Shown here: in pieces, positions 3,582 through 37,884 of the stretch
How positions within the stretch are numbered: the first letter of the stretch is position 1
Layout: every line of letters starts with the position of its first letter
DNA from: Egicoccus halophilus
GTDB lineage: Bacteria > Actinomycetota > Nitriliruptoria > Nitriliruptorales > Nitriliruptoraceae
DNA length: 64,000 bases
NCBI RefSeq assembly: GCF_004300825.1
Contig: NZ_CP036250.1
Span: 1,736,001 to 1,800,000, forward strand
Direction of reading: 5' to 3'
Program-made: the position numbers and the translations under genes
The notes under the pieces: model-generated
Seen by the model: the letters and a program-made list of their open reading frames with translations, nothing else
Databases searched by the model: none
Told to the model about the DNA's origin: nothing

Positions 3582-3653
3582 CGGCGCCGCCCGCGGTGCC
3601 CGCTGCCGGCGACGGGTCGTGTCCGCGGCGAGCTCACGTCGCGCACCGTCGCC

Positions 3654-18190: not shown

Positions 18191-19174
18191 ATGCGGGTCG
18201 TGGTGACCGGAGGCGCTGGGTTCATCGGCGCCAACCTCGTCAGGCGCCTGGTGACGACGCCGGGGATCACCGGTGTGGTCGTCGTCGACGACCTGTCCAC
18301 TGGTGGACTGGCGAATCTTGCAGGCATCGACGACGAGGACGTCGAGACACCGGTCGATGTCAGGATCGGGAGCATCCTCGACGAGGGCCTGCTGCAGGCG
18401 GCCTTTGCCGGCGCTGACGCGGTCGTGCACTTGGCGGCGTTGCCGTCAGTCCCGCGCTCCATCGATGATCCGATGGCCAGTCACCTCGTCAACGCGACCG
18501 GCACGCTGTCGGTGCTCGAGGCGGCACGTCGTGCCGGGAACCTGCACGTGGTACTCGCGTCGTCCTCGTCGGTGTACGGCGCGAACCCCGCCCTGCCGAA
18601 GTCCGAGAACCTGCAGCTGCGACCGATGTCGCCCTACGCGGTGTCGAAGCAGGCAACGGAGGCGTATGCGCTCGCCTACGCCCACTGCTTCGGCCTTCCC
18701 GTCCTGCCGTTCCGGTTCTTCAACGTCTTCGGTCCTCTGCAGGCCGCCGGGCACGCCTACGCCGCCGCGATCCCGGCGTTCCTCGACGCTGCCATGCGTG
18801 GGGTGCCGGTCCCCATCGAGGGAGACGGGCTCCAGACCCGCGACTTCACCTACGTCGGGTCGGTGAGCATGGCGGTCATCGATGCGCTGCAGCGTCGCGT
18901 GACCAGCGACACGGCCGTGAATCTCGCCTTCGGCAGCCGCTGCACGCTGCTCGAACTGATCGACGAGTTGGAACGTCAGGTGGGAACACCGCTCGTCCGT
19001 GAACACCGTGCACCACGCCAAGGGGACGTGCGCCACTCGCAGGCCGACGCGACGCGACTTCGTGCCCTGTTCCCCGAGCTGGAACCCGTCGACCTGCAGA
19101 CGGGGTTGCGGCAGACCATCGACTGGTTCCGCACGCTGCCCGAGTACGCCCTGGGCGGCGCCAGCGTGCGCTGA
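18191..19174 (+). CDS. NAD-dependent sugar epimerase/dehydratase (UDP-glucose 4-epimerase-like SDR)
   Basis: 327 residues from the ATG after a GGGGGGTGG ribosome-binding run. NAD motif TGGAGFIG at 6-13, ASSSSVYG at 123-130 and catalytic Y149xxxK153 in SPYAVSKQATEAY. FRFFNVFGP and TRDFTYVG follow in order. The pattern fits GalE/WbpP-type 4-epimerases of UDP-hexoses or UDP-HexNAc. The aminotransferase gene begins 1 nt after its stop. It could supply a 4-epimer or a 4-keto intermediate for that enzyme. Confidence 0.85.
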   Translation: MRVVVTGGAGFIGANLVRRLVTTPGITGVVVVDDLSTGGLANLAGIDDEDVETPVDVRIGSILDEGLLQAAFAGADAVVHLAALPSVPRSIDDPMASHLVNATGTLSVLEAARRAGNLHVVLASSSSVYGANPALPKSENLQLRPMSPYAVSKQATEAYALAYAHCFGLPVLPFRFFNVFGPLQAAGHAYAAAIPAFLDAAMRGVPVPIEGDGLQTRDFTYVGSVSMAVIDALQRRVTSDTAVNLAFGSRCTLLELIDELERQVGTPLVREHRAPRQGDVRHSQADATRLRALFPELEPVDLQTGLRQTIDWFRTLPEYALGGASVR

Positions 19175-19175
19175 C

Positions 19176-20318
19176 GTGACCGCCGACCCACCGATCCGGA
19201 TCCACCTGTCACCACCACACGTCGGGGTGGAGGAGCGCGAGCACCTGCTCGAAGCGTTCGAGTCGAACTGGATCGCGCCCCTCGGCCCAGACGTCGATGC
19301 GTTCGAGGCGGAGTTCGCCGCCGTGCTGGGCGCTCCGCACGCCGTGGCGCTCTCGTCGGGAACCGCCGCCCTGCACCTCGCGCTCCGTCAGGTGGGGGTG
19401 GGCCCCGGTGACCGGGTCCTGTGCTCGACGATGACCTTCGTCGCGAGCGCCGCTCCGATTCGCTACCTGGGCGCAGAGCCCGTGTTCGTGGACGCCACCG
19501 AGGACTCGTGGAACCTCGACGTCGATCTCGTCGCCGAGGCGCTCGACGAGGCAGCGCGCATCGGCCGGCCGTACCGGGCGCTCGTGGCCGTCGACCTCTA
19601 CGGCCGTTGCTGCGACTACGAGCGTCTCGCGCCGTTGTGCCGCGACCATGGCGTGGCGCTGGTCGAGGACGCGGCCGAGGCGCTGGGCGCCCGCCATCGT
19701 GGTCGCGCCGCCGGCACGTTCGGTGCGGCTGGCGTGTTCTCCTTCAACGGCAACAAGATCCTGACGACCTCGGGGGGTGGGATGCTCGTGACCACGGACG
19801 CGGATCTGGCGGCGCGCACCCGGCACCTCGCCACGCAGGCCCGTGAGCCGGCCGCTCACTACGAGCACGTGGAGGTCGGCTACAACTACCGCCTCAGCAA
19901 CTTGTTGGCGGCCCTCGGCCGGGCACAGCTGCGCAAGCTCGAGGAACGGGTTTCCCGTCGTCGGGAGATAGGACGCCGCTATCGGGAGGCGCTGACGGAC
20001 CATCCGGGCGTCCACTTCGCGCCGATGGGCGACCCTGACGAGAGCAACCACTGGCTCACCTGCTTGACGGTCGACCCGCTGGTTGCGCGGGTCGACCGGG
20101 AAGCGTTGCGGCAGCATCTCCGGTCACGCGGCATCGAGGCGCGACCTGTCTGGAAGCCGATGCATCGCCAGCCGGTCTTCGGCGACTGCGACGTGCTCGG
20201 TGGCAAGGTGGCCGAGCGGCTCTTCGAGGAAGGACTCTGCCTGCCCAGCGGCTCGTCGCTCACGGAGGCGGAGCAGGACGAGGTCGTCACCGAGATTGGC
20301 CACGTCCTAGGTCGTTGA
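19176..20318 (+). CDS. DegT/DnrJ/EryC1/StrS aminotransferase (PglE/perosamine-synthase-like)
   Basis: 380 residues from GTG at 19176. PLP-dependent sugar aminotransferase that would convert a nucleotide-linked 4-keto-6-deoxy sugar to a 4-amino sugar using glutamate. NWIAPLGPDVDAFE near the start is typical of the 4-aminotransferase branch, SGTAALHLAL begins at 61, VEDAAEALGA contains the PLP-binding Asp, and SFNGNKILTTSGGGM holds the Schiff-base K194. Best paired with the WbpM/PglF-type dehydratase at 24187. Confident family call; the exact product is inferred. Confidence 0.9.
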   Translation: MTADPPIRIHLSPPHVGVEEREHLLEAFESNWIAPLGPDVDAFEAEFAAVLGAPHAVALSSGTAALHLALRQVGVGPGDRVLCSTMTFVASAAPIRYLGAEPVFVDATEDSWNLDVDLVAEALDEAARIGRPYRALVAVDLYGRCCDYERLAPLCRDHGVALVEDAAEALGARHRGRAAGTFGAAGVFSFNGNKILTTSGGGMLVTTDADLAARTRHLATQAREPAAHYEHVEVGYNYRLSNLLAALGRAQLRKLEERVSRRREIGRRYREALTDHPGVHFAPMGDPDESNHWLTCLTVDPLVARVDREALRQHLRSRGIEARPVWKPMHRQPVFGDCDVLGGKVAERLFEEGLCLPSGSSLTEAEQDEVVTEIGHVLGR

Positions 20319-20454: not shown

Positions 20455-20970
20455 ATGCACGACGACGAGAAGATCGAGGGCGCGGGCGCCGGACGCCGCG
20501 ACTTCCTCAAGCGCACCGCCGTGGTCGGGGGCATGGTGTGGGCTGCGCCACTGATCCAGAGCGCACCGGCGTTCGCGGCCCAGACGTCGCCGCCTCCGCC
20601 GACCGGAGGCCAGGACATCTCGTTCGTCGCCTTCGTCATCGAGAACCGGTCGAGTACCCGCTACAAGTACGAGGACGCCGGGAAGAACACGGAGTGCACG
20701 TTCGAGGGCGGCGGGGAGTTGAACAAGCACTTCGACGGCTACCCCGCGCTCCAAGAGGAGTGGAAGAACACGCCGCAGGGCAGCCCCACCGATGGGCGCG
20801 TCAGCCTCTCGTGCACCGACGACAAGGTGTGGACGATCACCCCGAGCGCGAACTACCGCGTCAAGTGGGCGCTGGTGAAGAGCGGCTCGAAGTCCATGGC
20901 GACGGCGTTCCTCGGGCCCACCGGGACGGGCTACCCGCATGGACAGGCGGTGCAGGTCTTCCAAGCCTGA
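20455..20970 (+). CDS. Small twin-arginine-signal exported protein, unknown function
   Basis: 171 residues. A Tat signal peptide is clear: RRDFLKR at 14-20, then a hydrophobic stretch (TAVVGGMVWAAPLI) and a likely AFA-A cleavage near 42. The mature part begins with a Pro-rich linker (TSPPPPTGG) and is a compact domain of about 120 residues with two Cys (ECTF and SCTD), which could form a disulfide. I do not recognise the family. The ribosome-binding site is GAGGGGACGAG, part of the shared leader element. It directly precedes the HprK-like/PqqD genes and is the best candidate substrate or cargo of that system. Confidence 0.8.
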   Translation: MHDDEKIEGAGAGRRDFLKRTAVVGGMVWAAPLIQSAPAFAAQTSPPPPTGGQDISFVAFVIENRSSTRYKYEDAGKNTECTFEGGGELNKHFDGYPALQEEWKNTPQGSPTDGRVSLSCTDDKVWTITPSANYRVKWALVKSGSKSMATAFLGPTGTGYPHGQAVQVFQA

Positions 20971-21020
20971 TTCAGCTCGGCAGTGGAGGGACGGTCTCGG
21001 GCCGCCGCCTCGGGTGCTTC

Positions 21021-21926
21021 TCAAGCATCGTCGGCCGCCGCCATCAGGCGTCGTACGGTTGCAACCGCTTCGTCGAGTCGTCCGAACGAGAGACGGAAGG
21101 CGGGCACGTCGGTGAGTGCGTTCTTGAGACCACGCAGTTCACGGATGCCGCTCGAGGTCTCTTCGACCGCGAAGGCACACGACGAGGCGTGACGGAGCGC
21201 ATCAGCTCCTGACAGCGGCTCGAGCCGCACCGGCTGGTCCGCGACGTACTCGGGGAACACGAGCAGCCGGAGGTAGCCCTCCGCGACGACATCGGTGAAC
21301 CCCGTTGCCAGGACCTGCCACTGGTCACGGTGGTAGTGCTTGAGGCGCTGGGGAAGTTCCGGCTCGTGGTGAGGAAGCACCGGCCAGGACCCGGGGTCCA
21401 GTGAGAGCGGCTTCCGATATCCCTGGACCAGTCCGTCGGCGGACAAGGCCACCGCCTCGTCGGTGAGATAGGCCAGGCCCGTATCCAGGAGTCCCGCCAC
21501 CAACGTCGTCTTGCCGGACTCCATGGCAGCCGGCAGGAGTACGACCGCGTCGCCACGTGCGACCGCTCCGGCATGCAGGAGCACGCGGTCCTGGACGGGC
21601 TGGATCACGTGACGGTTCACGGCCCAGAACAGTTGAGCAACCAGGGTCCCGGGGTCCGCCGATACGGCGATCTCGATGTCGTCGCGCCAGACGCCGCCAC
21701 GGCCGTGGTCGGGCGTCAGAACCGAAAAGCACGCCGATCGGTCGTCGGCGTCCGAGCTCCGCATCGGTGCGTAACAGGCGTCGAGATGAGTGGACAGTTC
21801 GGGGTCGGAGGTGCGGATGCTCCAGCTACGCCCGAAGCACTGGAACGGCCCGACTCGGTGATGGCACCGCTCGTCACGTTGCCTGGACAGAATCGCCGAC
21901 CTGCCGTCCGATGGTGACTCCCGCAC
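21021..21926 (-). CDS. HprK-like P-loop protein (HPr kinase C-terminal-domain relative)
   Basis: 301 residues from GTG at 21926, chosen because GGCGGGGG lies 6 nt upstream; an in-frame ATG at 22052 would add 42 residues of low-complexity sequence. The core LLHAGAVARGDAVVLLP (from 117) leads into a P-loop AAMESGKT at 133-140, where Ala replaces the first Gly of Walker A, then YLTDE at 153-157 and RKPLSLDPGSWP. This is the order seen in HprK-like proteins that occur with PqqD proteins and NTP_transf_5 proteins in RiPP and HPr-rel-A loci. Activity (kinase, ATPase) is unproven. Divergent from the first PqqD-like gene. Confidence 0.8.
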   Translation of the reverse strand: MRESPSDGRSAILSRQRDERCHHRVGPFQCFGRSWSIRTSDPELSTHLDACYAPMRSSDADDRSACFSVLTPDHGRGGVWRDDIEIAVSADPGTLVAQLFWAVNRHVIQPVQDRVLLHAGAVARGDAVVLLPAAMESGKTTLVAGLLDTGLAYLTDEAVALSADGLVQGYRKPLSLDPGSWPVLPHHEPELPQRLKHYHRDQWQVLATGFTDVVAEGYLRLLVFPEYVADQPVRLEPLSGADALRHASSCAFAVEETSSGIRELRGLKNALTDVPAFRLSFGRLDEAVATVRRLMAAADDA

Positions 21927-22129
21927 CAAAAGCCCCCGCCCTATCCCCACGACCGCACACCATACTGCAGCGAGAGATCGCCGCAGTCGGTAGCTCGAGA
22001 ACGTCAGAAGAGGGCGTTCGGCGAACGATGCGGGCGACCAACGTGCGAACATTTCACTGATGCGGCATGGTCTCCGTCCGGCGTCCGGTCGCGGAATCGG
22101 CGCCTGCGTGGGTCGGACGTGGAGGGGCC
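21927..22129. promoter_or_regulatory. Divergent intergenic region with GTTCG-N-CGAAC inverted repeat
   Basis: This 203-nt stretch separates the HprK-like and PqqD-1 genes and must hold both promoters. GTTCGGCGAAC at 22016-22026 has perfect 5-bp arms. A related GTTCGGTCGAAC lies at 22583-22594 before the LuxR-type gene, suggesting a shared operator. If the HprK-like gene starts at the ATG at 22052, the element would lie inside it. Confidence 0.35.
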
Positions 22130-22489
22130 ATGTCATTCGTTATCGATGGTTCCTACGTTCCGAGTCTCGGCAGCGGCGTGATCGCAATGCCCGTCGCGGA
22201 GGAGACCCTGCTCTTCGATGAACAACGCGGCATGCTGCACCAACTCGACCCCATCGGGGCGGCCGTATGCAGCTGCATGGACGGTGAGACGTCGATCGAT
22301 CAGGCGGTCGACGAACTCGCTGCTGCCTTCGGAGCCCCCCGTGATCAGGTCGCCAGCGATGTACTGGCCCTCGTGGAGGAGTTCGGACGGCTGGGGCTGC
22401 TCGATGGCCTGGAGCCGGAACCCGCCCCCGCTGCGATCAAAGGAGACGACGTCCAGTTTCCCGATTCCGGCGGGGCGTGCGGTCCGTGA
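22130..22489 (+). CDS. PqqD/RRE-like protein 1 with C-terminal tail
   Basis: 119 residues from ATG 22130, directly after GGAGGGG. Residues 1-93 follow the PqqD fold pattern: a beta-rich start (IAMPVAEETLLFDEQRGMLHQL) and then DPIGAAVCSCMDGETSIDQAVDELAAAFG with the usual winged-helix segments. PqqD-type domains (RREs) bind leader peptides or partner enzymes. Beyond the domain is a 26-residue tail, Pro/Ala-rich then ending DSGGACGP, which is unusual. The tail might be a linker, a docking site or an encoded peptide substrate. No PQQ genes are present, so a role in PQQ synthesis is unlikely. Confidence 0.75.
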   Translation: MSFVIDGSYVPSLGSGVIAMPVAEETLLFDEQRGMLHQLDPIGAAVCSCMDGETSIDQAVDELAAAFGAPRDQVASDVLALVEEFGRLGLLDGLEPEPAPAAIKGDDVQFPDSGGACGP

Positions 22490-22826
22490 CGTCGACCAGA
22501 AGGTGTATCGCGCACTCCTGGCCGACGAAAAGGGGCCGTCTGGCCTTTGATGGTTTGAACCACATCGACTAGTTACTGCATGGTTCGGTCGAACGCGTGT
22601 GGCAAGTGTTCCAGTCGCCTTCCGAAGTGAAATCGAACCAATGTAGTTCCTTCGTCCTTCGAATGTGGTCCTTTGCGGCAAGCACTTCTCTTCTGCCGAT
22701 TCGATTGACGAGTCGAGCAGGGACATGCATGCTCCTCGTTGTCCGACGGATGTCAGCAGTTGGGGTGATGGGCAGGCCGGCGGAGGGGCGCGAGTCGAGC
22801 GGCTCGCAAGGGGCGACAGGCGAGCC
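22490..22826. promoter_or_regulatory. 337-nt gap with operator-like inverted repeats upstream of the LuxR-type gene
   Basis: Noticeably richer in A/T than its surroundings between about 22545 and 22700. It contains TGGTTTGAACCA (22551-22562, perfect 5-bp arms around TG), then GTTCGGTCGAAC (22583-22594, 5-bp arms around GT) about 30 bp later, and a GAACCA half-site near 22632. No convincing small gene was found. This looks like a regulated promoter region. Confidence 0.4.
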
Positions 22827-23867
22827 ATGGCTCGGGGCGAAGCAACGGTACGAGTGGGCATTCTTGCGGCTGATCGTGCCTTCGCGGAGGGCCTTGATGC
22901 GGCGCTCGGACGTTGCGGTGTCGAGGCCACACTGCTGCCTCCCGATCCGTCGGCATGGCCACAGGACCTGACCGCTCTGGCGGTCGAACTCGGCCATGAC
23001 GACTCCGACGCTGCCTGGGCTCGGGTGTCGGGGTGCGCACCTGCTGCCGTGATCGGTCTCGGCGCCGCCCTGGATGTCGGACTGCACTCGTCGGTGACCG
23101 TGCGCCTGGGCATCGACGCCAGCCTTCGGCAGTTCCTCCATGCGGTGGCGCCCGAAGTGGATGCCGTCGGATCGGAGGAGCGACCGGCCTCGCCGGTGCG
23201 CGTCCGGGTCGTGTTGGTCGACCCGCACCGACTGCGGCGTGAGGTCACCGCAGCCGCACTCGACCGGCAGCCCGGTATCGAGGTCGCGGCTTGTGCCGAC
23301 GACGCGTCGACGGCGCTGTTGCAGATGGAGCGTGTCGGTGCCGCGGTGGTCGTCGTGGCGGTGGGAGTCGCTGACGCCGGGCGGATCTGCGCGGCTGCAC
23401 GCGCCGACGGCCGCCCTCGCGTGCTGTTGCTGGACCGCGCAGCCGATGAGGTTCGCCTCCTCGATGCGATCGAGGCCGGCGCCGATGGCTACACGGTTGG
23501 CGAGAACGGCATCACCGGCGTCGCTCGGGCGGTCGAAGCGATCGCGCGAGGGGAGACGGTCGTCCCGGCCGTACTGCTGGGACCGCTGCTCCGACGCCTG
23601 ATCCGTCGTCAGCGCGATGCTGCACAGGCCGCAGAGCGGCTCGTGGTGCTGACGCCTCGCGAGCGTGAGGTACTGGCGCTCCTCGTGGAGGGGAGCGACC
23701 AGCTCGGCATCGCCAGCGCGCTGTTCATCTCACCGGAGACGGCGCGCACGCACCTGCAGCGCCTCCTGCGCAAGCTCGGCGTCCGCTCCCGCGCGGAGGC
23801 GGTCGCTCTGGTGGAGCAGACCGGTATGGCAGAGCGCCTGGGACGCATCGTGGAGGCTGCGTCGTGA
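22827..23867 (+). CDS. Orphan LuxR-type transcriptional regulator with two degenerate receiver-like domains
   Basis: 346 residues from ATG 22827. Two receiver-like Rossmann units come first, beginning VRVGILAADRAF (about 8) and VRVRVVLVDPHRL (about 124). Neither shows an Asp at the phosphorylation position; strand 3 of the second reads AAVVVVAVGVADA. The C-terminal LuxR HTH starts at LTPREREVLALL and continues SPETARTHLQRLLRKLGVRSR. No histidine kinase is adjacent, so control by ligand or protein binding is more likely than phosphorylation. The next gene, PqqD-2, starts within its stop codon (GTGA), so regulator and RRE protein are made together. It is the likely regulator of this operon. Confidence 0.8.
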   Translation: MARGEATVRVGILAADRAFAEGLDAALGRCGVEATLLPPDPSAWPQDLTALAVELGHDDSDAAWARVSGCAPAAVIGLGAALDVGLHSSVTVRLGIDASLRQFLHAVAPEVDAVGSEERPASPVRVRVVLVDPHRLRREVTAAALDRQPGIEVAACADDASTALLQMERVGAAVVVVAVGVADAGRICAAARADGRPRVLLLDRAADEVRLLDAIEAGADGYTVGENGITGVARAVEAIARGETVVPAVLLGPLLRRLIRRQRDAAQAAERLVVLTPREREVLALLVEGSDQLGIASALFISPETARTHLQRLLRKLGVRSRAEAVALVEQTGMAERLGRIVEAAS

Positions 23868-24190
23868 ACGATCCCGTCCCGTCGTTGGCGGCTCACCGGG
23901 GCGTGACGCAGACGCTTCCGTCCCGGCGCGGTGACGTCGAACGGTATGACGGCGGAACCGAGAGCGTGTTGTTCGTTGCTGGTAGCAGTCAGCGGCACGT
24001 CCTGAATGCACCGGCACGCGCCATCTGGGAGGCCTGCGACGGCACCACCACGATCGAGGAGCTCGTCCGAGCCATCTGCACCGTGTTCTCGGTGTCGTAC
24101 GGCGCGGCGTTGCACGACATCGAGGTGGTTCTCGGGGCGCTCGAGCGAGCCGGACTGGTGGCATGGACAGGGAACGAGGGGCGGACATGA
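23864..24190 (+). CDS. PqqD/RRE-like protein 2
   Basis: 108 residues from a GTG overlapping the regulator's TGA. The PqqD pattern is clear: ESVLFVAGSSQRHVLNAPARAIWEACDG, then TTIEELVRAICTVFSVSYGAALHDIEVVLGALERAGLV. The IWEACDG-TTIEELV segment is the typical helix-turn before the wing. It ends in the start codon of the WbpM-like gene (ATGA). By analogy it binds a peptide or partner enzyme; nothing shows which. Confidence 0.8.
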   Translation: MNDPVPSLAAHRGVTQTLPSRRGDVERYDGGTESVLFVAGSSQRHVLNAPARAIWEACDGTTTIEELVRAICTVFSVSYGAALHDIEVVLGALERAGLVAWTGNEGRT

Positions 24191-26082
24191 TGCTCGATGG
24201 GGACGTGCGCGTGCACGGGCGCGCCGCGTGGTGGACGTCGGCGGCGCGACGCAGCGTACGAGGGCCTTCCGACGTGGCGCTGACGATCCTCGATGTCGCG
24301 CTCGTCGGAGTCGCCTACGCGACGACACTGGTCCTGCGCTACGAACTGGCCGTTCCCGCCGCGGCGTGGAACGGTCTGCTGCGGTTCCTGCCCATCGCCG
24401 TGGTCGCCCACGTCGTCACCAACCGTGTAGCGGGGGTGTACGGGCCGGTCTGGCAGCAGGCATCGATCCTCGAAGCCCAGCGCATCGCCGCCGCCGGCGT
24501 CGTCGCGATGGGCAGCCTGCTCGCCGGCGTGTACCTGATCGATCGCGCGGTTCCGTTGCTGGTGGTGCTCGCGGGCGGCCTGCTGACGACCGCGCTGCTC
24601 GGCGTCCTCCGGTTCCAGTCGCGCCTGTTCGCCTTCCACCGCCGCGGTGGGGGTGGCGGGACCCGGGTGTTGGTCGCGGGGGCCGGCGAGTCGGCCGGAT
24701 CGATCCTCCGTGAGCTCTCACGGATGCCGACCCCCAACGCGACCATCGTCGGGTTCGTCGACGACGACCCGCGCAAGGTCGGCCGGCTGCTCGGGAACGT
24801 GCCGATCCTCGGTTCCATCGACGAACTCGTCGAGGTCGGCCGCCAGGTGCAAGCCGAGCAGGTGCTGCTGGCGATCCCGTCGGCAAACTCCACCCTGGTG
24901 CGCCGGGTCGCGGACGCGACCGCGCGGCTGGGTGTCCCGCTGAAGGTGTTGCCCAGCGTCTCCGAGTTGATGGACAACCAGCCGCACCTGCGGGACGTGC
25001 GTGACCTGTCCATCGACGACCTGCTCGGGCGCGAACCCATCTCGACCGATCTCGCCTCGGTCCAGGCGCTCGTCAAGGGACGGTGTGTGCTCGTGACCGG
25101 GGGTGGCGGATCCATCGGTTCGGAGATCGTACGTCAGGTCGCGGCCTACGCCCCGGCGCGACTGTTGGTGCTCGACCGCGACGAGACCCACCTGTTCGAC
25201 GCGATGGCGGCCATCGAAGGGCGGGCGGTTCCCATCCTGCTCGACGTCCGCGATCGACGAGCCGTGCGGGAACTGTTCGAGCGCGAACGTCCGGACATCG
25301 TGTTCCACGCGGCTGCCAACAAGCACGTGCCGTTGCTGGAGTCCCACCCGCGCGAGGCCGTCACCAACAACGTGCTCGGGACGGAGAACCTCGTGACCGC
25401 GGCCCGCTCCGTGGCCACCCCGCGGGTGGTCTTCATCTCCACGGACAAGGCCGTCAATCCCTCGAGCGTCATGGGCGCGTCCAAGCGAATGGGCGAGCGC
25501 CTGGTCCACGCCAACGCGCCGCAGGGTGCGGCCTGGTGTGCCGTCCGTTTCGGCAATGTCCTCGGCAGTCGGGGAAGTGTGGTGCCGACCTTCGTCCGGC
25601 AGATCCGCAGTGGCGGACCGGTCACGGTCACCCACCAGGACATGACGCGGTACTTCATGAGCATCCCCGAAGCCGTGCAGTTGGTGTTGCAGGCGGCAGC
25701 CCTGGCCGAGGACCGCGAGGTGTTCATGCTCGAGATGGGCGCTCCCGTGCGCATCGTCGACCTCGCACACCGCATGATCTCCCTGGCCGGCCTTCGCGTC
25801 GGGACAGACATCGAGGTGCAGGTCACCGGTTTGCGCCCCGGCGAGAAGATCACCGAGGAGCTGCGGACCTCGGACGAGCGCGCTGAGCACACGAGCCACC
25901 CGAAGATCCTGCGCCTGCATCCTCCGGCCGTCGACCCTGGCATCGTGTCGGCGACGGTGCAGGGGCTGTCGGTGGCCGCCGCCGAGCGTGACGACCAGGA
26001 AACGATCCGCCTGCTGTTCGACGGGGAGCTCCCGCAATGTCTCGACCTGACCTCGCCAGACCTCATCAGGCTGCGGGAGTGA
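24187..26082 (+). CDS. Membrane-bound WbpM/PglF/CapD-type nucleotide-sugar 4,6-dehydratase
   Basis: 631 residues from ATG 24187, which overlaps the PqqD-2 stop and follows GAGGGGC. Four N-terminal membrane segments (about 25-130) are followed by a CoA-binding-like Rossmann unit (RVLVAGAGESAG) and the catalytic SDR domain (VLVTGGGGSIGSEIVRQV). The active-site segment STDKAVNPSSVMGASK has Met where most SDRs have Tyr, the mark of UDP-GlcNAc 4,6-dehydratases of this type. It would make UDP-4-keto-6-deoxy-GlcNAc, the substrate of a PglE-like aminotransferase. Central enzyme of the operon; confident family call. Confidence 0.92.
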   Translation: MMLDGDVRVHGRAAWWTSAARRSVRGPSDVALTILDVALVGVAYATTLVLRYELAVPAAAWNGLLRFLPIAVVAHVVTNRVAGVYGPVWQQASILEAQRIAAAGVVAMGSLLAGVYLIDRAVPLLVVLAGGLLTTALLGVLRFQSRLFAFHRRGGGGGTRVLVAGAGESAGSILRELSRMPTPNATIVGFVDDDPRKVGRLLGNVPILGSIDELVEVGRQVQAEQVLLAIPSANSTLVRRVADATARLGVPLKVLPSVSELMDNQPHLRDVRDLSIDDLLGREPISTDLASVQALVKGRCVLVTGGGGSIGSEIVRQVAAYAPARLLVLDRDETHLFDAMAAIEGRAVPILLDVRDRRAVRELFERERPDIVFHAAANKHVPLLESHPREAVTNNVLGTENLVTAARSVATPRVVFISTDKAVNPSSVMGASKRMGERLVHANAPQGAAWCAVRFGNVLGSRGSVVPTFVRQIRSGGPVTVTHQDMTRYFMSIPEAVQLVLQAAALAEDREVFMLEMGAPVRIVDLAHRMISLAGLRVGTDIEVQVTGLRPGEKITEELRTSDERAEHTSHPKILRLHPPAVDPGIVSATVQGLSVAAAERDDQETIRLLFDGELPQCLDLTSPDLIRLRE

Positions 26083-26089
26083 CGGCTCG

Positions 26090-27757
26090 ATGACGGTCGA
26101 TGCGCCGATCATCCGGTTCGTCCTCGCGCTGCGACGCTGGTGGACGGTGGTCGCCGGCCTCGTCGTGGTCGCCCTCGTCGGTACGTGGCTCACCCTGCCC
26201 GCTCACGCCCCCCAGGCGGACGTCGAGCCTGGCGTGAACTACACGGCGACGCATCTGCTGCTCAGCGAGAACCCGACGGTGGAGACCGGCAACCTCGATC
26301 TGGTCGTTCTGCTCGCGCAGCAGGGCGAGGTCCGCACCAGGGTCACGGGGGCACTCGGGGACGGCTTCCCGGTGGGCACGGCCGAATCGGTCTCCATCGC
26401 GCCGAACAAGGAGCTCGGGACGCTCGAGCTCACCACGGTGCAGCCGACGGCCGACCAGGCCGCCCTGGTCGTCAACACCTACGCCGAGGTGCTGCGTGAG
26501 TTCTTCGACGGCCGCGCGGCGGCGGGTGTGCAGCGGGACTTCGACGCGGCCGTCGAGCGCCTGCTCGCCTTCGGAGAGCGCATCCGCGGCCTCGAGGACG
26601 AGATCAACGGCTTGACCGAGTCGAGCATCGAGCGTCGACTGCTCGAGGCGGAACTCGACGTGCTCGTCGAGCAGTACGGCCTGCTGCAGGCCGAGGTGCA
26701 GTCGCTCAACGCGCGCACCATCGGCGACAACCCGACCTTCACGACGCTGCAGGAGCCGGTGCCGACCCCGATCGCGACCGGCCAGCTGTTCAGCATGCCG
26801 ACCAATCGGGGCTTTCGGTTCGTGCTCGCACTGTTCGCCGCACTGTTCGCCGGCTTGGGTGCCGTATTCGCCATCGACTGGCTCGACAGCCGGCTGCGCA
26901 CCCGACAGGACGTCGAGGACGCCTACGGCCTGCCGGTCATCGCCGAGTTGCCCCGGATGCGACGACGTGAGGTGCACCAGGACCCGTTGCCAGCACTGAC
27001 ACGACCCGGCTCCCGCGCGGCGGAGGTCTACCGCTCGTTGCAACTGACGCTCGCGTTGGCGTTGCGGTGGCAGCTCGACCGCAGCACGCCGACGGGCAGT
27101 GCGGCCGTCGGGTCCGCCGAACGCATCGAGGGCAGCGGCCCACCGCGGACCTTGTTGGTCACCTCGGCACGGGCGGGCGAAGGCAAGTCCACCATCGTCG
27201 GCAATCTTGCCGCCAGCTTCGCGGAGACGGGGCAGCGGGTCCTGGTGGTCGACTGTGACTTCCGCCGATCCGCCGTCGCCGATCTCCTCGGCGCCGAGAA
27301 GGGGCCGAGTCTGCGCGATTACGCCGACCCGCGTTTCGACGGACTCCAGGGCCTCATCGTGTCCTCGGCGGTGCCGCGCGTCACGACCGTCCGTGCCGGA
27401 ACACCCGGGGTCGCGCCGGTGTGGTTCTTCAGCCGATGCGCCGATCTGGTCGCCGAAGCACGTGAGCATGCCGACATCGTCGTCTTCGACGCCGGCCCTC
27501 TGCTCGCGACCAACGAGGCAGCGGCGCTGGTCCCGCACGTCGACTCGGTGCTCGTCGTCACCTGCAGCGGACGTCTGGCCGCGTCACTTGCGCGCCGTGC
27601 CCTCGAGACGCTAACGCAACTCAAGGCCACGGTGGCCGGCATCGTGCTCCTCGGTGGCGACGACTCGCCGCGGCGCTATGGCCACTACTACGAGCCGCTG
27701 CGCAAGGCCGCAGCGACGCAGGCTCTGGACGACGTCACCCCGGCCGAGCGGGTATGA
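26090..27757 (+). CDS. Wzc-like co-polymerase/BY-kinase with tyrosine-containing tail (copy 3)
   Basis: 555 residues. Membrane segments at about 19-36 and 243-262, coiled-coil-like region about 145-205, then a BY-kinase domain with Walker A SARAGEGKST (359-368) and Walker A' VLVVDCDFR (384-392); IVVFDAGPLL is the Walker B region. Unlike the two copies at 2-5 kb it ends in a Tyr cluster (RRYGHYYEP), the expected autophosphorylation tail. It starts 7 nt after the dehydratase, and its stop overlaps PqqD-3 (ATGA). It likely sets chain length of the glycan made by this operon. Confidence 0.87.
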   Translation: MTVDAPIIRFVLALRRWWTVVAGLVVVALVGTWLTLPAHAPQADVEPGVNYTATHLLLSENPTVETGNLDLVVLLAQQGEVRTRVTGALGDGFPVGTAESVSIAPNKELGTLELTTVQPTADQAALVVNTYAEVLREFFDGRAAAGVQRDFDAAVERLLAFGERIRGLEDEINGLTESSIERRLLEAELDVLVEQYGLLQAEVQSLNARTIGDNPTFTTLQEPVPTPIATGQLFSMPTNRGFRFVLALFAALFAGLGAVFAIDWLDSRLRTRQDVEDAYGLPVIAELPRMRRREVHQDPLPALTRPGSRAAEVYRSLQLTLALALRWQLDRSTPTGSAAVGSAERIEGSGPPRTLLVTSARAGEGKSTIVGNLAASFAETGQRVLVVDCDFRRSAVADLLGAEKGPSLRDYADPRFDGLQGLIVSSAVPRVTTVRAGTPGVAPVWFFSRCADLVAEAREHADIVVFDAGPLLATNEAAALVPHVDSVLVVTCSGRLAASLARRALETLTQLKATVAGIVLLGGDDSPRRYGHYYEPLRKAAATQALDDVTPAERV

Positions 27758-28023
27758 GTTCCGCCGAGTGGCGGCGGAATCCGCTGGCGCTCTGGCGTCG
27801 GTCGGGGGTCCGGATCGTGTTGATCCCACCCGGCGAGGAACATGCACTGGTGCTCGACGGCAGCAGCGCCCTCATCTGGCTCCTGCTCGGCGACGACGGA
27901 CGATCGGCGGATGCCCTGGCCGGCGAGTTGTCGACGTTCTACACCGAGGAGGTCGGTGCGATCCAGCCAGCGCTGACGTCCTTCCTGCACGAGCTCCGTG
28001 GCCTGGGAGTGGTGACGACGTGA
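27754..28023 (+). CDS. PqqD/RRE-like protein 3
   Basis: 89 residues, a near-minimal PqqD domain: VRIVLIPPGEEHALVLDGSSALIWLLLGDDGRSADALAGELS, then TFYTEEVGAIQPALTSFLHELRGLGVV. It is coupled on both sides: ATGA with the BY-kinase and GTGA with the nucleotidyltransferase. PqqD-NTP_transf_5 pairing is common in RiPP-like and HPr-rel-A loci, so this copy probably serves the next gene's product. Confidence 0.75.
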   Translation: MSSAEWRRNPLALWRRSGVRIVLIPPGEEHALVLDGSSALIWLLLGDDGRSADALAGELSTFYTEEVGAIQPALTSFLHELRGLGVVTT

Positions 28024-29108
28024 TCCCGTGGTTGCGGGCGGCCTCCAGCCACGGCCTTCCCGGCGGTCGCGCACCGATGCCTGCTGCCCCGTTGCCCGCT
28101 GACGCATGGACGGAGATGCTCGCCGCCGTGCGGCATCATCGCGTGCTGGGGTTCCTGCAGTCCGCGATCGAGGACGGCGTCTTCCCGGCAACCGACGAGC
28201 AGGCCGAGCAGGTCGAGGATGCGCACCTGCAGGCGATGATCTGGGGCATCCATCTCGAGCGCCGCCTGTTGCGGATCCTTGACGTGCTCGAAACCGGGGG
28301 GGTCGAGGCGGTGGTGTTGAAGGGGACGTCCTCGGCGCACCTGATGTATCCCGACCCGGCGGTGCGCACGTTCAACGACAACGACTTGCTGTTCCGTTCG
28401 GAACAGTTCGACGACGCGATGGGGATGCTCGTGGCGACCGGCTACCGGCGCCTGTTCCCGCCCACCAGCCCGGCGTTCGACCGGCACTTCGGCAAGGGTG
28501 CCACCCTGCGAGGCAGGGGAGGTGACGAGCTCGACGCGCATCGCAATCTGGTGTTCGCCACGTTCGGTCTGCGGATCGAACTCGACGAGTTGTTCCGGTC
28601 GAGTCGCACCTTCGTCCTCGGGGGACACGACGTCCGGACCCTGGGTGCCGAGACCCGTCTGCTCCACGCGTGCTATCACGCGGCGCTCGGTGATCCCGAC
28701 CCGCGGTTGAGCAGTCTGCGCGACGTCGCACAGTTGCTGGCGTTCGGCACCCACAGCATCCCGCACGTGCAATGGCTCGCGCACCAGTGGCGTGCCCAAG
28801 CGGTGCTTGCACGCGCGTTCCGGCTCTGCCGTCAACACCTCGATCTGGAGGTCGGTGGACCGCTCGTCGACTGGGCGGAGCGGCACGAATCCACCCGTGC
28901 CGAACGCCGGGCCATCGAGGCCTATGTCGGACGCAACCGGCATCACGCAGTCAAGCTGCGCGCCTCCTTGCCTTTTCTCCCGGGTCCGCGGACGAAGCTC
29001 CGTTTCGTCCGGGCGGCGCTTCCGTCATCCGGTTTCGTCGAACAGGTCGGTCAGGAGCCGCGCCGCAGCTGGCTCCTTCGTGGCGTGCGAGCGATGTTCG
29101 ATGTCTGA
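28020..29108 (+). CDS. NTP_transf_5-type nucleotidyltransferase
   Basis: 362 residues from GTG overlapping the PqqD-3 stop. It fits the uncharacterised nucleotidyltransferase family PF14907: VVLKGTSSAHLMYPDP (from 98), R116, then NDNDLLF with D120 and D122 as the probable metal site, ELDAHRNLVF, and ETRLLHACYHAALGD with RDVAQLLAFG towards the C-terminus. In lasso-peptide and related loci such enzymes occur with HprK-like kinases and PqqD proteins; their reaction is mostly unknown. Here all partner types lie within 9 kb. It ends the coupled operon, 65 nt before a GT4 gene. Confidence 0.75.
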   Translation: MIPWLRAASSHGLPGGRAPMPAAPLPADAWTEMLAAVRHHRVLGFLQSAIEDGVFPATDEQAEQVEDAHLQAMIWGIHLERRLLRILDVLETGGVEAVVLKGTSSAHLMYPDPAVRTFNDNDLLFRSEQFDDAMGMLVATGYRRLFPPTSPAFDRHFGKGATLRGRGGDELDAHRNLVFATFGLRIELDELFRSSRTFVLGGHDVRTLGAETRLLHACYHAALGDPDPRLSSLRDVAQLLAFGTHSIPHVQWLAHQWRAQAVLARAFRLCRQHLDLEVGGPLVDWAERHESTRAERRAIEAYVGRNRHHAVKLRASLPFLPGPRTKLRFVRAALPSSGFVEQVGQEPRRSWLLRGVRAMFDV

Positions 29109-30450: not shown

Positions 30451-31899
30451 TCAGGTCGCGGGTTCGTCTCCGCCCTGCTGCTCGCCCTTCGGAGGGAGGT
30501 ACACGAGCGCTGGCGATGGCTGGCGGCGGAACCGGATGTTCTCCCTGGACGGCGCCGCCGGCGCTCGGTGACCTTGCTCGACGGGCAGAACGAGCAGCAG
30601 CGCGACGAACGGGAGCAGCTGCGCACGCTGTCGGGTCAGGATGCCGAAGTTGCCGACGTTGGAGAACGCGGTGATGAACCCGATGCTGTAGGCCGCCGCG
30701 AGCGTCACCATCGGTTGCTTGAGTATGCGACGTGGCACGCTGGAGAGCCGAGGGAGGGACACCGCGAACAGGCCGAGCAGGAACACCCCTTCCAGGGAGG
30801 TCAGCTGCGCTTGACGATTGTGTGCCTCGGTCGGGAACGGGCGGAACGGGACGGTGATCGCGGCATGCACGAAGTCAACGGGGTTGCGAACCGGCCGGCT
30901 CTCGAATCCCGAGCCTCCCTGGCTGGTGCGGCGATCGGTTTCGGCGAAGATCTGATCGGTCGTCGAACCCTCCACCGACTCGTCCTTGGGTAGTCGGTCG
31001 CCGAAGTTCATGATCAGCACGACGGCGCCCGTGCCGGCGATGATCAGTCCGATCAGGAACCCTGCGGCGCTCTGCTTGATGCTGCGGTCACGGGCTCTCA
31101 CGAGGAAGGCGCCTGCGAACGCGAGGCCGAACAGCGCTCCCATGTGTGGGCGAACCTGATAGGTCGCGAGGGTGCCCAGCACCAACACGAGGTAACCGAA
31201 GCGTTGTCGCGCCAACACACGGGCTCCCCCGTAGGTGGCAAGTCCGAGTCCGAAGACGAGCCAGGCCTCCTTGCCCAGACTGGAGGGCCAGAACACCATG
31301 GTGGGCAGGAACATCACCAGCATGGCGTAGCGGCGCAGATCCGCCCCGGGAGCCGCCAGCTTCGCCGCTTGCACGAACAGGTAGGCACCGACATAGGCGA
31401 GCAGGGAGAAGACGGCGAAGCCGACGAGCACGTGCGCCGGCGCGACGGCGAAGAGCACACCGGAGAGGAAGTCCATGAAGGGCGTACCGGTCTCCCGGGC
31501 CTGCTCGGGCAACTGACCGGATCGGATGACGCCTGCCAGCCTGCGGCCGTTCTCGACGTAGCGGTTGAAGTCCCCGCGTCCGCCGTAGAGGTCGCCCATG
31601 ATGGTGTATCGCGCTATGGCGCCGACCAGTTTCGCGCCCAGGCCGAGCACCAGGATGCGCCGCAGACGGGCGTCGTCCTCTCGGCGCAGGGCCCAACGCA
31701 ATGCGAACAGGATCCCGACCGCCGCGACACCGCCCATGCCGAGCGCCAGAACCTGCGATGCCCCCACCGTGCCCCTCGTGACGATGCGTCGAAGAATACG
31801 GCGAGCCGCGGGCCACCGTGGGCCGTAGGCGTTACGCTCGCCCACGTCTCGGGGCGGGGCTGTTGCCGGGACCGGGTCGTGCGAAGGGCGCACGAGCAC
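30451..31899 (-). CDS. Polytopic membrane protein, probable Wzy-type polysaccharide polymerase
   Basis: 482 residues from GTG 31899 (the first 45 are basic and the true start could be later). About ten hydrophobic segments, for example VLALGMGGVAAVGILFALRW and HVLVGFAVFSLLAYVGAYLFV. A large extracytoplasmic loop sits around residues 300-360 (DRLPKDESVEGSTTDQ onward), a layout common in O-antigen polymerases. Conserved-looking motifs include YGGRGDFNRY, MVFWPSSLGKEAW and YQVRPHMG. No exact family is recognised; its place between GT4 genes and the ABC exporter supports Wzy or a related polymerase. Convergent with the GT4 gene, divergent from the exporter. Confidence 0.65.
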   Translation of the reverse strand: MLVRPSHDPVPATAPPRDVGERNAYGPRWPAARRILRRIVTRGTVGASQVLALGMGGVAAVGILFALRWALRREDDARLRRILVLGLGAKLVGAIARYTIMGDLYGGRGDFNRYVENGRRLAGVIRSGQLPEQARETGTPFMDFLSGVLFAVAPAHVLVGFAVFSLLAYVGAYLFVQAAKLAAPGADLRRYAMLVMFLPTMVFWPSSLGKEAWLVFGLGLATYGGARVLARQRFGYLVLVLGTLATYQVRPHMGALFGLAFAGAFLVRARDRSIKQSAAGFLIGLIIAGTGAVVLIMNFGDRLPKDESVEGSTTDQIFAETDRRTSQGGSGFESRPVRNPVDFVHAAITVPFRPFPTEAHNRQAQLTSLEGVFLLGLFAVSLPRLSSVPRRILKQPMVTLAAAYSIGFITAFSNVGNFGILTRQRAQLLPFVALLLVLPVEQGHRAPAAPSRENIRFRRQPSPALVYLPPKGEQQGGDEPAT

Positions 31900-31906: not shown

Positions 31907-33703
31907 GTGGGGTCGGACGTGGGGCAGACACTTCGACAGGCGTTCCACCTGGTCGGGCGTGGGCAATCGCGACGCTGGCTCAGTCTCGTCGTGCTGGCGG
32001 TGATCGCCAGCGGCTTCGAGATGCTCGGTGCGGTGCTCGTCTACGTCCTGCTCGCGCTCGTGGTCGACCCGAGCGGGGATGTCGAACTCCCAATGCTCGG
32101 TGACCTTCGCGCGCTGTTCCCGCGAGTGGCACAGGAGCGGCTGCTGCTGTGGCTGGTGATTGCGATGGCAGTGTTCTTCGTGGTCAGGACGGCCGTACAG
32201 GTCGGTGTCACCTACGTTCAGCAACGGGTCGCCCACAACGCCGGTGCCCGCCTGTCGATCCGTATGGTCGAGGGATACCTCCGCTGGCCCTACAGTTGGC
32301 ACCTGAGCCGCCCGTCCGCGGAGCTGATCCGGAATGGGCATCAGGCCGTCGATCAGTTGATCTCCCAGGTGTTCCTGCCCGTCGTCCGGGTGACGGCTGA
32401 GGGCTTCTTGACACTCGGCATGCTCTTCGTGCTGTTGGCGATCGCCCCCGGGGCGACCGGGATGGCCGTCGTCGTGGTCGGCGCTGCGGCCGCGTTGCTG
32501 TTGTTCGTCGTGCAGCCGCGGCTCAAGGCACTCGGTAGCCGTGCGCACGTCGCGTCCAAGGACGCCTACGCATCCCTCCAGCAGTCGCTGCACGGCGTAC
32601 GTGACATCCGAATACTCGGTCGTGAGCGGCACTTTTCGCGCGTCTATGCGCGCAGCCGGCTGCAGCTGGCGCGCTCGCACTATCTGCGCTCGACCCTCAC
32701 CGAGCTGCCGCACTCCATCATCGAGCTCGCGCTCATCGGATTCATCCTGCTGTTCTTCGGGCTCACCCTGATGCGGGGAACCGACGCGCAGTCGGCGCTC
32801 TCGGTACTCGGCCTGTTCGCCTACGCCGGGTTGCGCTTGCAGCCGTCCCTGCAGCGCATCATCAGCGGCCTGAACAACATCCGATTCTCCGCCGCACCAC
32901 TGGCCGACCTGCACGCCGACCTGCAGGCCATCGAGGGCCTGGAGCGATCGGCTCGCGAGCCGGCACCGCTGCCGTTCGACGTCGGCATCGAGTTGCGTGG
33001 CGTCGCATTTCGCTACGCGACCGCGGACCGAGACGCGCTGGCCGGTGTCGATCTGACGATCCGACCTGGTGAACAGATCGGCATCTGTGGCGCGACGGGT
33101 GGCGGGAAGACCACGCTCGTCGACGTGATCGCCGGTCTCCTCGATCCGGACGCCGGCCAGGTGCTCGTCGATGGGCGGGACGTGCACCGCAATAGCCGCG
33201 CGTGGCAGCGCAACCTCGGCGTCGTGCCGCAGATGGTGTTCCTGGTCGACGGGACGCTGCGCGCGAACATCGCCCTCGGTGTCGCGGACGAAGACGTCGA
33301 CGAAGTCGCGCTCGATGAAGCGATCGAGCTCGCGCAACTGCGGGAGTTCGTCGACTCGGTCCCTGATGGACTCGAGACACAGGTCGGTGAGCGAGGGGTG
33401 CGGGTCTCGGGCGGCCAGCGTCAGCGCATCGCGATCGCCCGCGCGCTGTACCGCCGTCCGCAGGTGTTGATCTTCGACGAGGGGACCTCCGCCCTCGACA
33501 ACATGACGGAGGCGGCCCTCATGAACGCGATCGAACGCCTGAAAGGTTCCCACACGATCATCCTGATCGCCCACCGCCTCTCGACGGTCGAGAAGTGCGA
33601 CCGGATCGTGTTCATGGAGAACGGCCGTGTCGCCGGACTGGGAACCTACGACGACCTTCGGCGCGACAGTCGGGGCTTCCGGGCACTCGCCGGCAGCCAC
33701 TGA
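31907..33703 (+). CDS. ABC exporter half-transporter (PglK/MsbA-like)
   Basis: 598 residues from GTG 31907; GTG 31919 (594 residues) is equally plausible. Six membrane helices occupy about 25-320. The ATPase domain has Walker A CGATGGGKTT (about 394-403), signature SGGQRQR (from 501), VLIFDEGTSALD and the switch His in LIAHRLST. The architecture is that of lipid-linked oligosaccharide flippases such as PglK, but peptide exporters have the same layout, including those in lasso-peptide loci. With PglC-, PglD-, PglE- and PglF-like genes nearby, glycan flipping is favoured. Only 7 nt separate it from the divergent polymerase start. Confidence 0.85.
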   Translation: MGSDVGQTLRQAFHLVGRGQSRRWLSLVVLAVIASGFEMLGAVLVYVLLALVVDPSGDVELPMLGDLRALFPRVAQERLLLWLVIAMAVFFVVRTAVQVGVTYVQQRVAHNAGARLSIRMVEGYLRWPYSWHLSRPSAELIRNGHQAVDQLISQVFLPVVRVTAEGFLTLGMLFVLLAIAPGATGMAVVVVGAAAALLLFVVQPRLKALGSRAHVASKDAYASLQQSLHGVRDIRILGRERHFSRVYARSRLQLARSHYLRSTLTELPHSIIELALIGFILLFFGLTLMRGTDAQSALSVLGLFAYAGLRLQPSLQRIISGLNNIRFSAAPLADLHADLQAIEGLERSAREPAPLPFDVGIELRGVAFRYATADRDALAGVDLTIRPGEQIGICGATGGGKTTLVDVIAGLLDPDAGQVLVDGRDVHRNSRAWQRNLGVVPQMVFLVDGTLRANIALGVADEDVDEVALDEAIELAQLREFVDSVPDGLETQVGERGVRVSGGQRQRIAIARALYRRPQVLIFDEGTSALDNMTEAALMNAIERLKGSHTIILIAHRLSTVEKCDRIVFMENGRVAGLGTYDDLRRDSRGFRALAGSH

Positions 33704-36083: not shown

Positions 36084-37246
36084 AGCGTCAGCCCCGCGTC
36101 GTGCATCTCACCACCGTCGACATGTCGCTGGTGCTGTTGCTGCTCCCGCAACTCGTGGCCTTCCGTGAGGCCGGCTACGAGGTGATCGGGGTCTCGGCGC
36201 CCGGTCCGTACGTCACGCAACTCGAGGACGCCGGCATCCGCCACGTCGCGCTCGAAGGCTCGACACGCTCCGCAGACGTGCGGGCCGACCTCGTCGCCGC
36301 ACGTGAGTTCGTGCGGCTGTGCCGGCGCCTGCGCCCCGACCTCGTGCACACCCACAACCCGAAACCCGGCGTGTACGGCCGCATCGGCGCCCGGCTGGCC
36401 GGCGTGCCGCACGTCGTCAACACCGTCCACGGCCTGTACGCCCAGCCCGACGACGCCTGGCGGAAGCGGGCGGTCGTCTACGGACTCGAGCGCGCCGCCG
36501 CGACGTTCTCGGACGCCGAGCTGCTGCAGAACCCCGAGGACCTGCCGGTGCTGCGGCGGCTGCGCACGCCGGCACGCAAGCTGCAGGTGCTCGGCAACGG
36601 GGTCGACCTCGCCCGCTTCGACCTCGACCGGCTCGCACCGCAGCGCGCCGAGGTACGTCGTGAGCTCGGCGTCGGCGACAACGAGGTCGTCGTCGGTCTC
36701 GTCGGCCGGCTGGTGGCCGAGAAGGGCTACCGCGAGGTGTTCGAGGCGGCCCGGGCGCTGCGACACACCCACCCGCGGGTGCGGTTCGTGGTGGTGGGAC
36801 CGACCGACACCGACAAGCCGGACGCGATCACCACCGACGAGCTGGCTGCCGTGGCCGCCGCCACGGGTCTGCGCCACCTCGGCGCCCGGTCCGACGTCGA
36901 GCGGCTCTACCTGGCGATGGATCTGTACGTCCTCGCCTCGCATCGGGAGGGCTTCCCGCGTTCGGCGATGGAGGCCGCCGCGATGGGGCGTCCGGTGATC
37001 GCGACCGACATCCGCGGCTGCCGACAGGTCGTCGACCATGGCACCAACGGTGTGCTGGTCCCGGTCCGCGACCCGGTGGCGCTCACCGCGGCGATCGCCC
37101 GCCTCGCCGACGAGGCCATCCTGCGGGCTTCGATGGGGGCGGCCAGTCGGCGCAAGGCCGAGCGTGAGTTCGACGACCGCCGTCAGATCCGCGTCACCCT
37201 GGATGTCTACGAGCGGCTCCTCGGCGCACACGGCGGGTCGCGATGA
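36080..37246 (+). CDS. GT4-family glycosyltransferase (PglA/WbpX-like)
   Basis: 388 residues from GTG 36080 (GTGA overlap). VVHLTTVDMSLVLLLLPQL, then LVHTHNPKPGVYGRIGARLAGVPHVVNTVHGLYA is the signature of the GT4 branch that acts early on undecaprenyl-PP-linked HexNAc (PglA, CapM, WbpX types). Donor part: LVGRLVAEKGYREVF and SHREGFPRSAMEAAAMGRPVIATDIRGCRQVV. Being coupled to PglD- and PglC-like genes suggests it adds the second sugar to the primed lipid. That role is inferred. Confidence 0.87.
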   Translation: MKRQPRVVHLTTVDMSLVLLLLPQLVAFREAGYEVIGVSAPGPYVTQLEDAGIRHVALEGSTRSADVRADLVAAREFVRLCRRLRPDLVHTHNPKPGVYGRIGARLAGVPHVVNTVHGLYAQPDDAWRKRAVVYGLERAAATFSDAELLQNPEDLPVLRRLRTPARKLQVLGNGVDLARFDLDRLAPQRAEVRRELGVGDNEVVVGLVGRLVAEKGYREVFEAARALRHTHPRVRFVVVGPTDTDKPDAITTDELAAVAAATGLRHLGARSDVERLYLAMDLYVLASHREGFPRSAMEAAAMGRPVIATDIRGCRQVVDHGTNGVLVPVRDPVALTAAIARLADEAILRASMGAASRRKAEREFDDRRQIRVTLDVYERLLGAHGGSR

Positions 37247-37884
37247 GCGCCGGGGCGTCGCGCGTCGACGTGGTCGTGGTCGGCACGGGCGGGATGGGAC
37301 GCGAGGCCGCCGCCTGGGTGCACGACCTGTCCGGGCAGTACCGCCTGCTCGGCTTCGTCGACGACGCCGCACCGGCCACCACCGTCGCCGACCTGCCGGT
37401 CCTCGGCCCGCTCACTTGGCTGCAGGAGCACCCGCAGGTGCAGGCGGTCGTCGCCGTCGGCGCCCCGGCGACCCGGGCCGACATCGTTCAGCGCCTCGAC
37501 GCGTGGGGCGTCGACCTCGCGCAGGTCGTGCACCCCTCGAGCGTCGTCGGCCCGCGGGTCGAGCTGGGGGAGGGGACCATCGTCTGCCCCCAGGCCGTGC
37601 TGACCTGTGACATCCGGCTCGGCCGGGCCGTGATCGTCAACTACGGCGCCATGCTCGGACACGACGGCGTCGTCGGTGACCACGCGTTCCTCGCGCCCGG
37701 GGTGCATCTCGCCGGGAACGTCACGATCGAGGCCGGCGCCGACGTCGGGATCGGCGCGTCGGTCCGGCAGGGGATCACGATCGGCGCCGGCGCGGTCGTC
37801 GGCGCCGGTGCCGCCGTCGTCCGCGACGTCGCCCCGGCCACCACCGTCGTCGGTGTGCCCGCGCGACCCATCCGGCGAGGCTGA
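37243..37884 (+). CDS. Sugar O/N-acyltransferase, PglD/NeuD family
   Basis: 213 residues. N-terminal nucleotide-sugar-binding Rossmann-like domain (VDVVVVGTGGMGREAAAW), then a left-handed beta-helix of hexapeptide repeats from about 95. The catalytic base H140 lies in VNYGAMLGHDGVVGD, and APGVHLAGNVTIEAGADVGIGASV continues the helix. In UDP-bacillosamine synthesis this enzyme acetylates the 4-amino group of the UDP-sugar. ATGA overlap with the GT4 gene upstream; the phosphoglycosyltransferase starts 1 nt after its stop. Confidence 0.88.
   Translation: MSAGASRVDVVVVGTGGMGREAAAWVHDLSGQYRLLGFVDDAAPATTVADLPVLGPLTWLQEHPQVQAVVAVGAPATRADIVQRLDAWGVDLAQVVHPSSVVGPRVELGEGTIVCPQAVLTCDIRLGRAVIVNYGAMLGHDGVVGDHAFLAPGVHLAGNVTIEAGADVGIGASVRQGITIGAGAVVGAGAAVVRDVAPATTVVGVPARPIRRG

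Follow-up and report, generated by a model that had tools for sequence, protein, structure and literature searches.

A candidate leader-guided modification module with a Tat signal peptide as leader in an exopolysaccharide operon of Egicoccus halophilus

Here we describe a gene module of Egicoccus halophilus (Actinomycetota), at positions 20455 to 29108 of a 64,000-nucleotide stretch of its genome (NZ_CP036250.1, positions 1,736,001 to 1,800,000; hereafter the window), in which a protein with a signal for the twin-arginine translocation (Tat) pathway is encoded together with an HprK-like kinase, three PqqD proteins and an NTP_transf_5 nucleotidyltransferase inside an exopolysaccharide (EPS) operon. 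We consider it probable, though well short of certain, that these genes form a leader-guided modification system following the logic of ribosomally synthesized and post-translationally modified peptides (RiPPs), the leader being the Tat signal peptide itself; the binding, the chemistry and the order of the steps are what we infer. The case draws, through sequence comparison and structure prediction, on recurrent gene linkage, on a motif inside the Tat signal, on the predicted fold of one PqqD and on the separation of the three PqqDs into lineages, and it suggests that the Tat protein is modified in the cytoplasm before reaching the cell surface.

Linkage of Tat-signal, HprK-like and PqqD genes

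The proposed substrate (20455..20970, plus strand) is a protein of 171 aa that bears the twin-arginine signal, hydrophobic region and AxA site of a Tat substrate. It scores 18.9 bits against TIGR01409 (cut-off 16.7), which makes it the second-best Tat match in its genome, and its twin arginines R14 R15 (20494..20499) were assigned from sequence and alignment. When six-frame open reading frames of fetched loci were searched with the window proteins, ten relatives were recovered within the class, nearly all adjoining an HprK gene. They align mainly across the signal peptide, while their mature parts vary in length and sequence, and this conservation of the leader beside divergent mature parts favours a leader-guided system. 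A single-sequence structure model of the window protein reached a predicted local distance difference test (pLDDT) value of 43.8. Some relatives end in sortase-like LANTG or IAQTG, after which come a hydrophobic segment and a tail of basic residues; among all Tat-leader proteins, sortase-like C-termini (LPFTG, LPETG, LAQTG, LANTG, IAQTG) were seen in L246, L159, L188, L117/L234 (L234 and L117 being the same contig) and L100.

Across 66 genomes of the class, matches to TIGR04352, PF14907 and PF05402 are tightly co-localised, a single locus often containing two to five PqqDs. Cassettes gathered by homology, and afterwards through independent searches on position and in further members of the phylum, number about 18; in each, a Tat-signal protein is encoded no more than ~2 kb from HprK, and a PqqD is nearly always present as well. 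The leader gene stands beside HprK in the window and in eight other fetched loci. A 45-column leader profile run against the same 66 genomes gave 13 matches at 47.8–80 bits, 11 of them seeds of the profile, before generic Tat signals began at 26.5 bits. Because the set gathered by leader similarity is partly circular, position-only and HprK-only searches were added. In a search of 397 genomes of the phylum, leader and HprK genes were adjacent in four genomes outside the class, none of them seeds, and a scan of named genomes by HprK only, yielding at least 18 loci and using a close HprK alignment since a wider one was too diverse, added a groundwater metagenome-assembled genome and one of Frankiaceae, both with the leader gene beside HprK and PqqD. 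With the leader set enlarged, 15 genomes scored at least 35 bits; TIGR04352 matched at 1e-8 in 11 of these versus 20 of the 382 others (Fisher ~1e-10, a partly circular figure, since HprK loci contributed seeds to the enlarged set). PqqD was present in all six re-tested leader genomes and in none of six genomes with weaker Tat matches. Chance adjacency of the Tat gene and HprK was rejected. The original prediction, made from the window sequence, had proposed to test whether these genes occur together elsewhere and whether the Tat protein keeps HprK and PqqD genes as neighbours; co-occurrence is seen in many genomes, and the Tat linkage recurs in loci across Actinomycetota.

The genome itself holds a second cassette (locus L105, 9196–10936; G000:C1:3559196-3560936) that unites one of the ten relatives of the Tat protein with a PqqD and an HprK. 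Its PqqD is the only one in the whole 3.98-Mb genome besides those of the window, and stands beside the second HprK (C1:3,560 kb). No EPS or NTP_transf_5 genes adjoin it, so that Tat protein, PqqD and HprK look like the core of the system. This cassette sits outside an EPS operon. Of the earlier proposal of a modification system tied to glycan assembly, leader-guided modification of an exported protein stands as the best reading, whereas the glycan part is a putative link drawn from gene order.

A proposed docking motif inside the Tat signal

Within the hydrophobic region of the Tat signal, the leaders hold the motif [W/Y]xxPx[V/I/L], represented in the window by W29-A-A-P-L-I34 (20539..20556, plus strand), the proposed docking site for a RiPP recognition element (RRE). 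It occurs in 19 of 20 actinobacterial Tat leaders adjacent to HprK, compared with 0 of ~27 generic Tat signals from the same class. One search pattern used in this survey also permitted F in place of W/Y, and its AxA rule lost a few known members. Proteins found by position, without the leader profile, bear it as well (WTTPVI in L219, WVAPVI in L221, YAAPTI in L102). The Tat protein of L102 sits between HprK and PqqD, and the heptapeptide AYAAPTI is common to its leader and to the lasso-peptide precursor of L100.

For discrete lasso RREs a consensus [Y/W]xxPx[L/V/I/A/F/Y] has been described, and in the linear polyphosphorylated peptides (LPPs) of Bacillota YxxP is required for binding (PMC13381572); furthermore, an HprK-like kinase is strongly stimulated by its RRE on a precursor with a YxxPxL leader (PMC10368454). 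The earlier idea that RRE proteins recruit a substrate acquires a concrete form, a lasso-type motif within a Tat signal, the binding itself being a prediction.

A sequence of steps can then be proposed. PqqD1, a lasso-type RRE by prediction, would bind the motif and hand the protein to the HprK-like kinase, which would phosphorylate Ser/Thr, perhaps close to the mature N-terminus; the PF14907 enzyme, aided by PqqD3, may decorate that phosphate with a sugar or a sugar phosphate, as in pseudomycoidin, where the NTP transferase glycosylates the phosphate (PMC8498205). Binding of the RRE would shield the Tat signal until modification is complete, after which Tat would export the modified protein and signal peptidase would remove the leader; a use of the product in the polysaccharide coat is conceivable. 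A Ser/Thr lies 12–15 residues past the motif Pro in 19 of 27 leaders and was weighed as a candidate phospho-site by analogy with Ser3 of LPPs, chance occurrence near the mature N-terminus being frequent. We advance a wider version only tentatively: that the Tat signal is double-coded, read by the RRE as a RiPP leader for cytoplasmic phosphorylation and phosphoglycosylation and then by the Tat translocase. On this view RiPP enzymes could modify full-size surface proteins, several of which end in sortase-like LPxTG/LAxTG motifs, and perhaps turn them into EPS carriers or anchors; this would hold for Actinomycetota and, in the form of HPr-rel-A, probably for Proteobacteria and Planctomycetota too.

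Several observations weigh against leader-guided modification. The motif statistic is partly circular, some seeds having been gathered by leader similarity near HprK, and the position-only set is small (3/3 in Actinomycetota). WAAPII occurs in phospholipase-like Tat proteins of two genomes without PqqD (G329, G338), so that the motif alone is non-diagnostic, and the second Tat protein of the E. halophilus genome has VATPLV and no W motif. Some leader proteins (G088:C60, G088:C67 and G189) lie away from HprK. The P-loop of the HprK-like protein departs from the classical form, though its motif residues are conserved, and LppN was inactive in a heterologous LPP system (PMC13381572).

Some of these points would also suit a rival view, in which the Tat protein is no substrate but a surface protein co-regulated with the EPS locus, HprK and the PqqDs act on another target (the BY-kinase, for example, or a precursor of the glycan), and WxxP is a local flavour of Tat signals; WAAPII in PqqD-free genomes and leader proteins unlinked to HprK speak for it. 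We regard this explanation as unlikely, given that in L105 and L110 (the latter a contig of 3.6 kb) Tat protein, PqqD and HprK occur together without an adjoining EPS enzyme or BY-kinase, that the motif is missing from the ~27 generic Tat signals of the class, and that the L102 leader matches the L100 lasso leader over seven residues. In turn, the confinement of conservation to the signal peptide, together with a Ser/Thr that 20 of 27 leaders carry four residues past the motif Pro, could speak for PqqD1 as a Tat proofreading chaperone of the TorD/DmsD kind, which times export while HprK phosphorylates PqqD1 or the signal and the mature protein stays unmodified. This appears to us quite improbable, since related HprK/RRE/NTP_transf_5 sets modify the precursor core (PMC10368454, PMC13381572) and NTP_transf_5 would be left without an obvious role.

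The substrate question matters beyond this locus, as polysaccharide loci in several phyla repeatedly contain HprK/PqqD/NTP_transf_5 sets, for which we found, in the open-access literature, no earlier report of a substrate beyond lasso peptides and the LPPs of Bacillota. With a concrete family of candidate substrates and a proposed docking motif of six residues, it becomes directly testable. If leader-guided modification is true, RiPP leader logic would reach from small peptides to exported proteins, and the Tat signal would gain a second function.

Module layout and three PqqD lineages

The original prediction had placed nine genes in the module, and every one of them is present there; the 4-nt overlaps it described are exact at four junctions: LuxR end 23867 with PqqD2 start 23864, PqqD2 end 24190 with the dehydratase ATG at 24187, BY-kinase end 27757 with PqqD3 start 27754, and PqqD3 end 28023 with the NTP_transf_5 GTG at 28020.

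The HprK-like kinase (21021..22052, minus strand; HprK-rel-A superfamily) is convergent with the Tat gene and divergent from PqqD1, its start having been refined to probably ~22052 and that of PqqD1 to probably ~22130. It matches TIGR04352 over its length (3.3e-24, 85.5 bits; curated cut-off 200), and its His161, Gly181-Lys182 and Glu200 are invariant in 14 relatives. The nucleotidyltransferase (28020..29108, plus strand; PF14907 1.9e-32) shows the KG...DxD active-site pattern, with K74-G75, D93 and D95 invariant in 12 relatives, and the order BY-kinase, PqqD3, NTP_transf_5 is kept in six other loci (L091, L104, L106, L108, L119, L120).

All three PqqDs, encoded on the plus strand, pass PF05402 above cut-off (PqqD1, 22130..22489, 1e-13; PqqD2, 23864..24190, 9.6e-11; PqqD3, 27754..28023, 1.3e-8), which settles the identity given to them earlier. 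Three in one locus had been called unusual; this did not hold, as two to five per locus are frequent in relatives. What is notable instead, as judged from tree and gene order, is that the three belong to separate lineages with fixed partners, namely HprK, LuxR and BY-kinase/NTP_transf_5. In a tree of 85 PqqDs, PqqD1 falls in an HprK-linked clade (support 96/93), PqqD2 in a clade whose members abut a LuxR gene (100/97), and PqqD3 with others linked to BY-kinase and NTP_transf_5, in a clade without resolved support. The three types also differ in their characteristic residues, the signature of PqqD3 being N-terminal.

The AlphaFold2 model of PqqD1 (pLDDT 84.9) has as its top Foldseek matches the lasso RRE-leader complexes 5v1u, 5v1v and 6jx3 (TM relative to target 0.80–0.87), and its top phmmer match is TbiB1; with a fold predicted to be near lasso B1 and the motif in its partner leaders, PqqD1 can be taken as a putative lasso-type RRE, its binding being predicted. 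Its top NCBIfam match, lasso_PqqD_Strm (5e-10), and the use of the same HprK/PqqD/NTP_transf_5 set by true lasso clusters of the class would also suit a degenerate or partial lasso-peptide cluster, which we nevertheless hold to be highly improbable: PqqD1 groups apart from lasso-linked PqqDs (some forks being weak), and profile scans of the locus proteins revealed in the module no lasso precursor, no B2 protease and no Asn-synthetase-type macrolactam cyclase. A lasso cluster in the window was rejected, as neither cyclase nor B2 was seen. True lasso clusters exist in the class in L094, L096, L100 and L095, with HprK, PqqD and often NTP_transf_5; they were recognised by eye from their precursors, a cyclase pattern search having missed SGGRDSS, and precursors of the first three contain YxxPx[L/I].

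The partner of PqqD2 is a NarL/LuxR-type regulator (22665..23867, plus strand) with a degenerate receiver domain: GerE matches at 1.8e-16, Response_reg merely at 0.08, and the phospho-acceptor Asp is absent from the window protein and from most relatives. The regulator could act as a peptide-sensing transcription switch. The same arrangement, a degenerate-receiver NarL/LuxR gene followed by an overlapping PqqD2-type gene (22665–24190), was observed in eight other loci.

The remaining genes are of EPS type. A WbpM/PglF-type nucleotide-sugar 4,6-dehydratase (24187..26082, plus strand; PF02719 6e-106) is followed by a Wzz/BY-kinase (bacterial tyrosine kinase; 26090..27757, plus strand; TIGR01007 domain 6e-23). 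Near the module lies a Wzy-like membrane protein (30451..31899, minus strand), for which a Pfam scan gave no match and whose homologues adjoin NTP_transf_5 in seven related loci. An ATP-binding cassette (ABC) exporter at 31907–33703 might correspond to the MsbA-like transporter of LPP loci or serve the polysaccharide. The PglF-, PglE- and PglD-like amino-sugar genes fit protein glycosylation and equally plain EPS synthesis; a DegT aminotransferase (18999–20318), the PglF-type dehydratase (24187–26082) and a PglD-type acetyltransferase (37243–37884) possibly constitute a bacillosamine-type amino-sugar pathway. Two more BY-kinase-type genes, homologues of that of the module, lie at the window's left end (1962–5267), and 41514–44168 encodes a large exported protein of beta-helix type that matches a CEMIP-type beta-helix.

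Relation to known systems

Like Tat proofreading chaperones of the TorD/DmsD type, a cytosolic protein would here bind the Tat signal and hold export until maturation; the fold is unrelated, the putative binder being a winged-helix RRE of the PqqD family with a linked kinase. With phosphorylated lasso peptides (paeninodin, pseudomycoidin, Bsf) the module shares the kinase, RRE and nucleotidyltransferase families and the motif [W/Y]xxPx[L/V/I], but it has no macrolactam cyclase or B2 protease that we could see, and its putative substrates are proteins of ~100–560 aa with a Tat signal.

The HPr-rel-A system (TIGR04352/TIGR04353) likewise places HprK-rel-A, PqqD and NTP_transf_5 side by side in an EPS context. 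Of the parallel drawn earlier, this adjacency stands, whereas the curated cut-offs are missed: the kinase falls short of its own, the PqqDs reach 28.1, 18.5 and 16.6 bits against the 35 of TIGR04353, and in the phylum sample of 397 genomes no kinase clears the 200 of TIGR04352, so that the locus is not HPr-rel-A as NCBI defines it. Small RR-signal proteins were observed beside HprK/PqqD/NTP_transf_5 loci of Proteobacteria, Desulfobacterales and Planctomycetota (L236/L242, L238, L239, L241, and L248 with three of 58–89 aa), mostly without Trp; none was found beside six HPr-rel-A-type loci (L235, L237, L243, L244, L247, L249). As such proteins accompany several proteobacterial HPr-rel-A loci, both systems may form one larger family.

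The nearest known relative is the LPP family (LppA/B/K/N/S/D), described as restricted to Bacillota (PMC13381572). Both have a discrete RRE, an HprK-like kinase and an NTP transferase, LPPs in capsular polysaccharide loci and the present set in an EPS operon; LPP precursors of 35–200 aa, with a conserved N-terminus carrying YxxPxV and variable C-termini, resemble the Tat-leader proteins, and a signal-peptidase-like enzyme removes their leader, as leader removal is proposed here (PMC13381572). The LPP leader consensus YxxPxVLxHQxIxFETxxS does not apply to RR...WAAPLI, the [Y/W]xxPx[V/I] core alone being common to both; as neither this consensus nor the HPr-rel-A cut-offs are satisfied, we assign the locus to neither family. 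The LPP leader, which is not a Tat signal, is processed by a dedicated signal peptidase I of archaeal type, and an MsbA-like exporter belongs to the LPP core set (PMC13381572); Pfam scans of the locus proteins (part of the window genes) revealed no such peptidase here. The module described here differs from LPPs in its Tat-signal leader, in an aromatic residue that is mostly Trp, in the presence of three RRE lineages in one operon, and in its actinomycetotal hosts.

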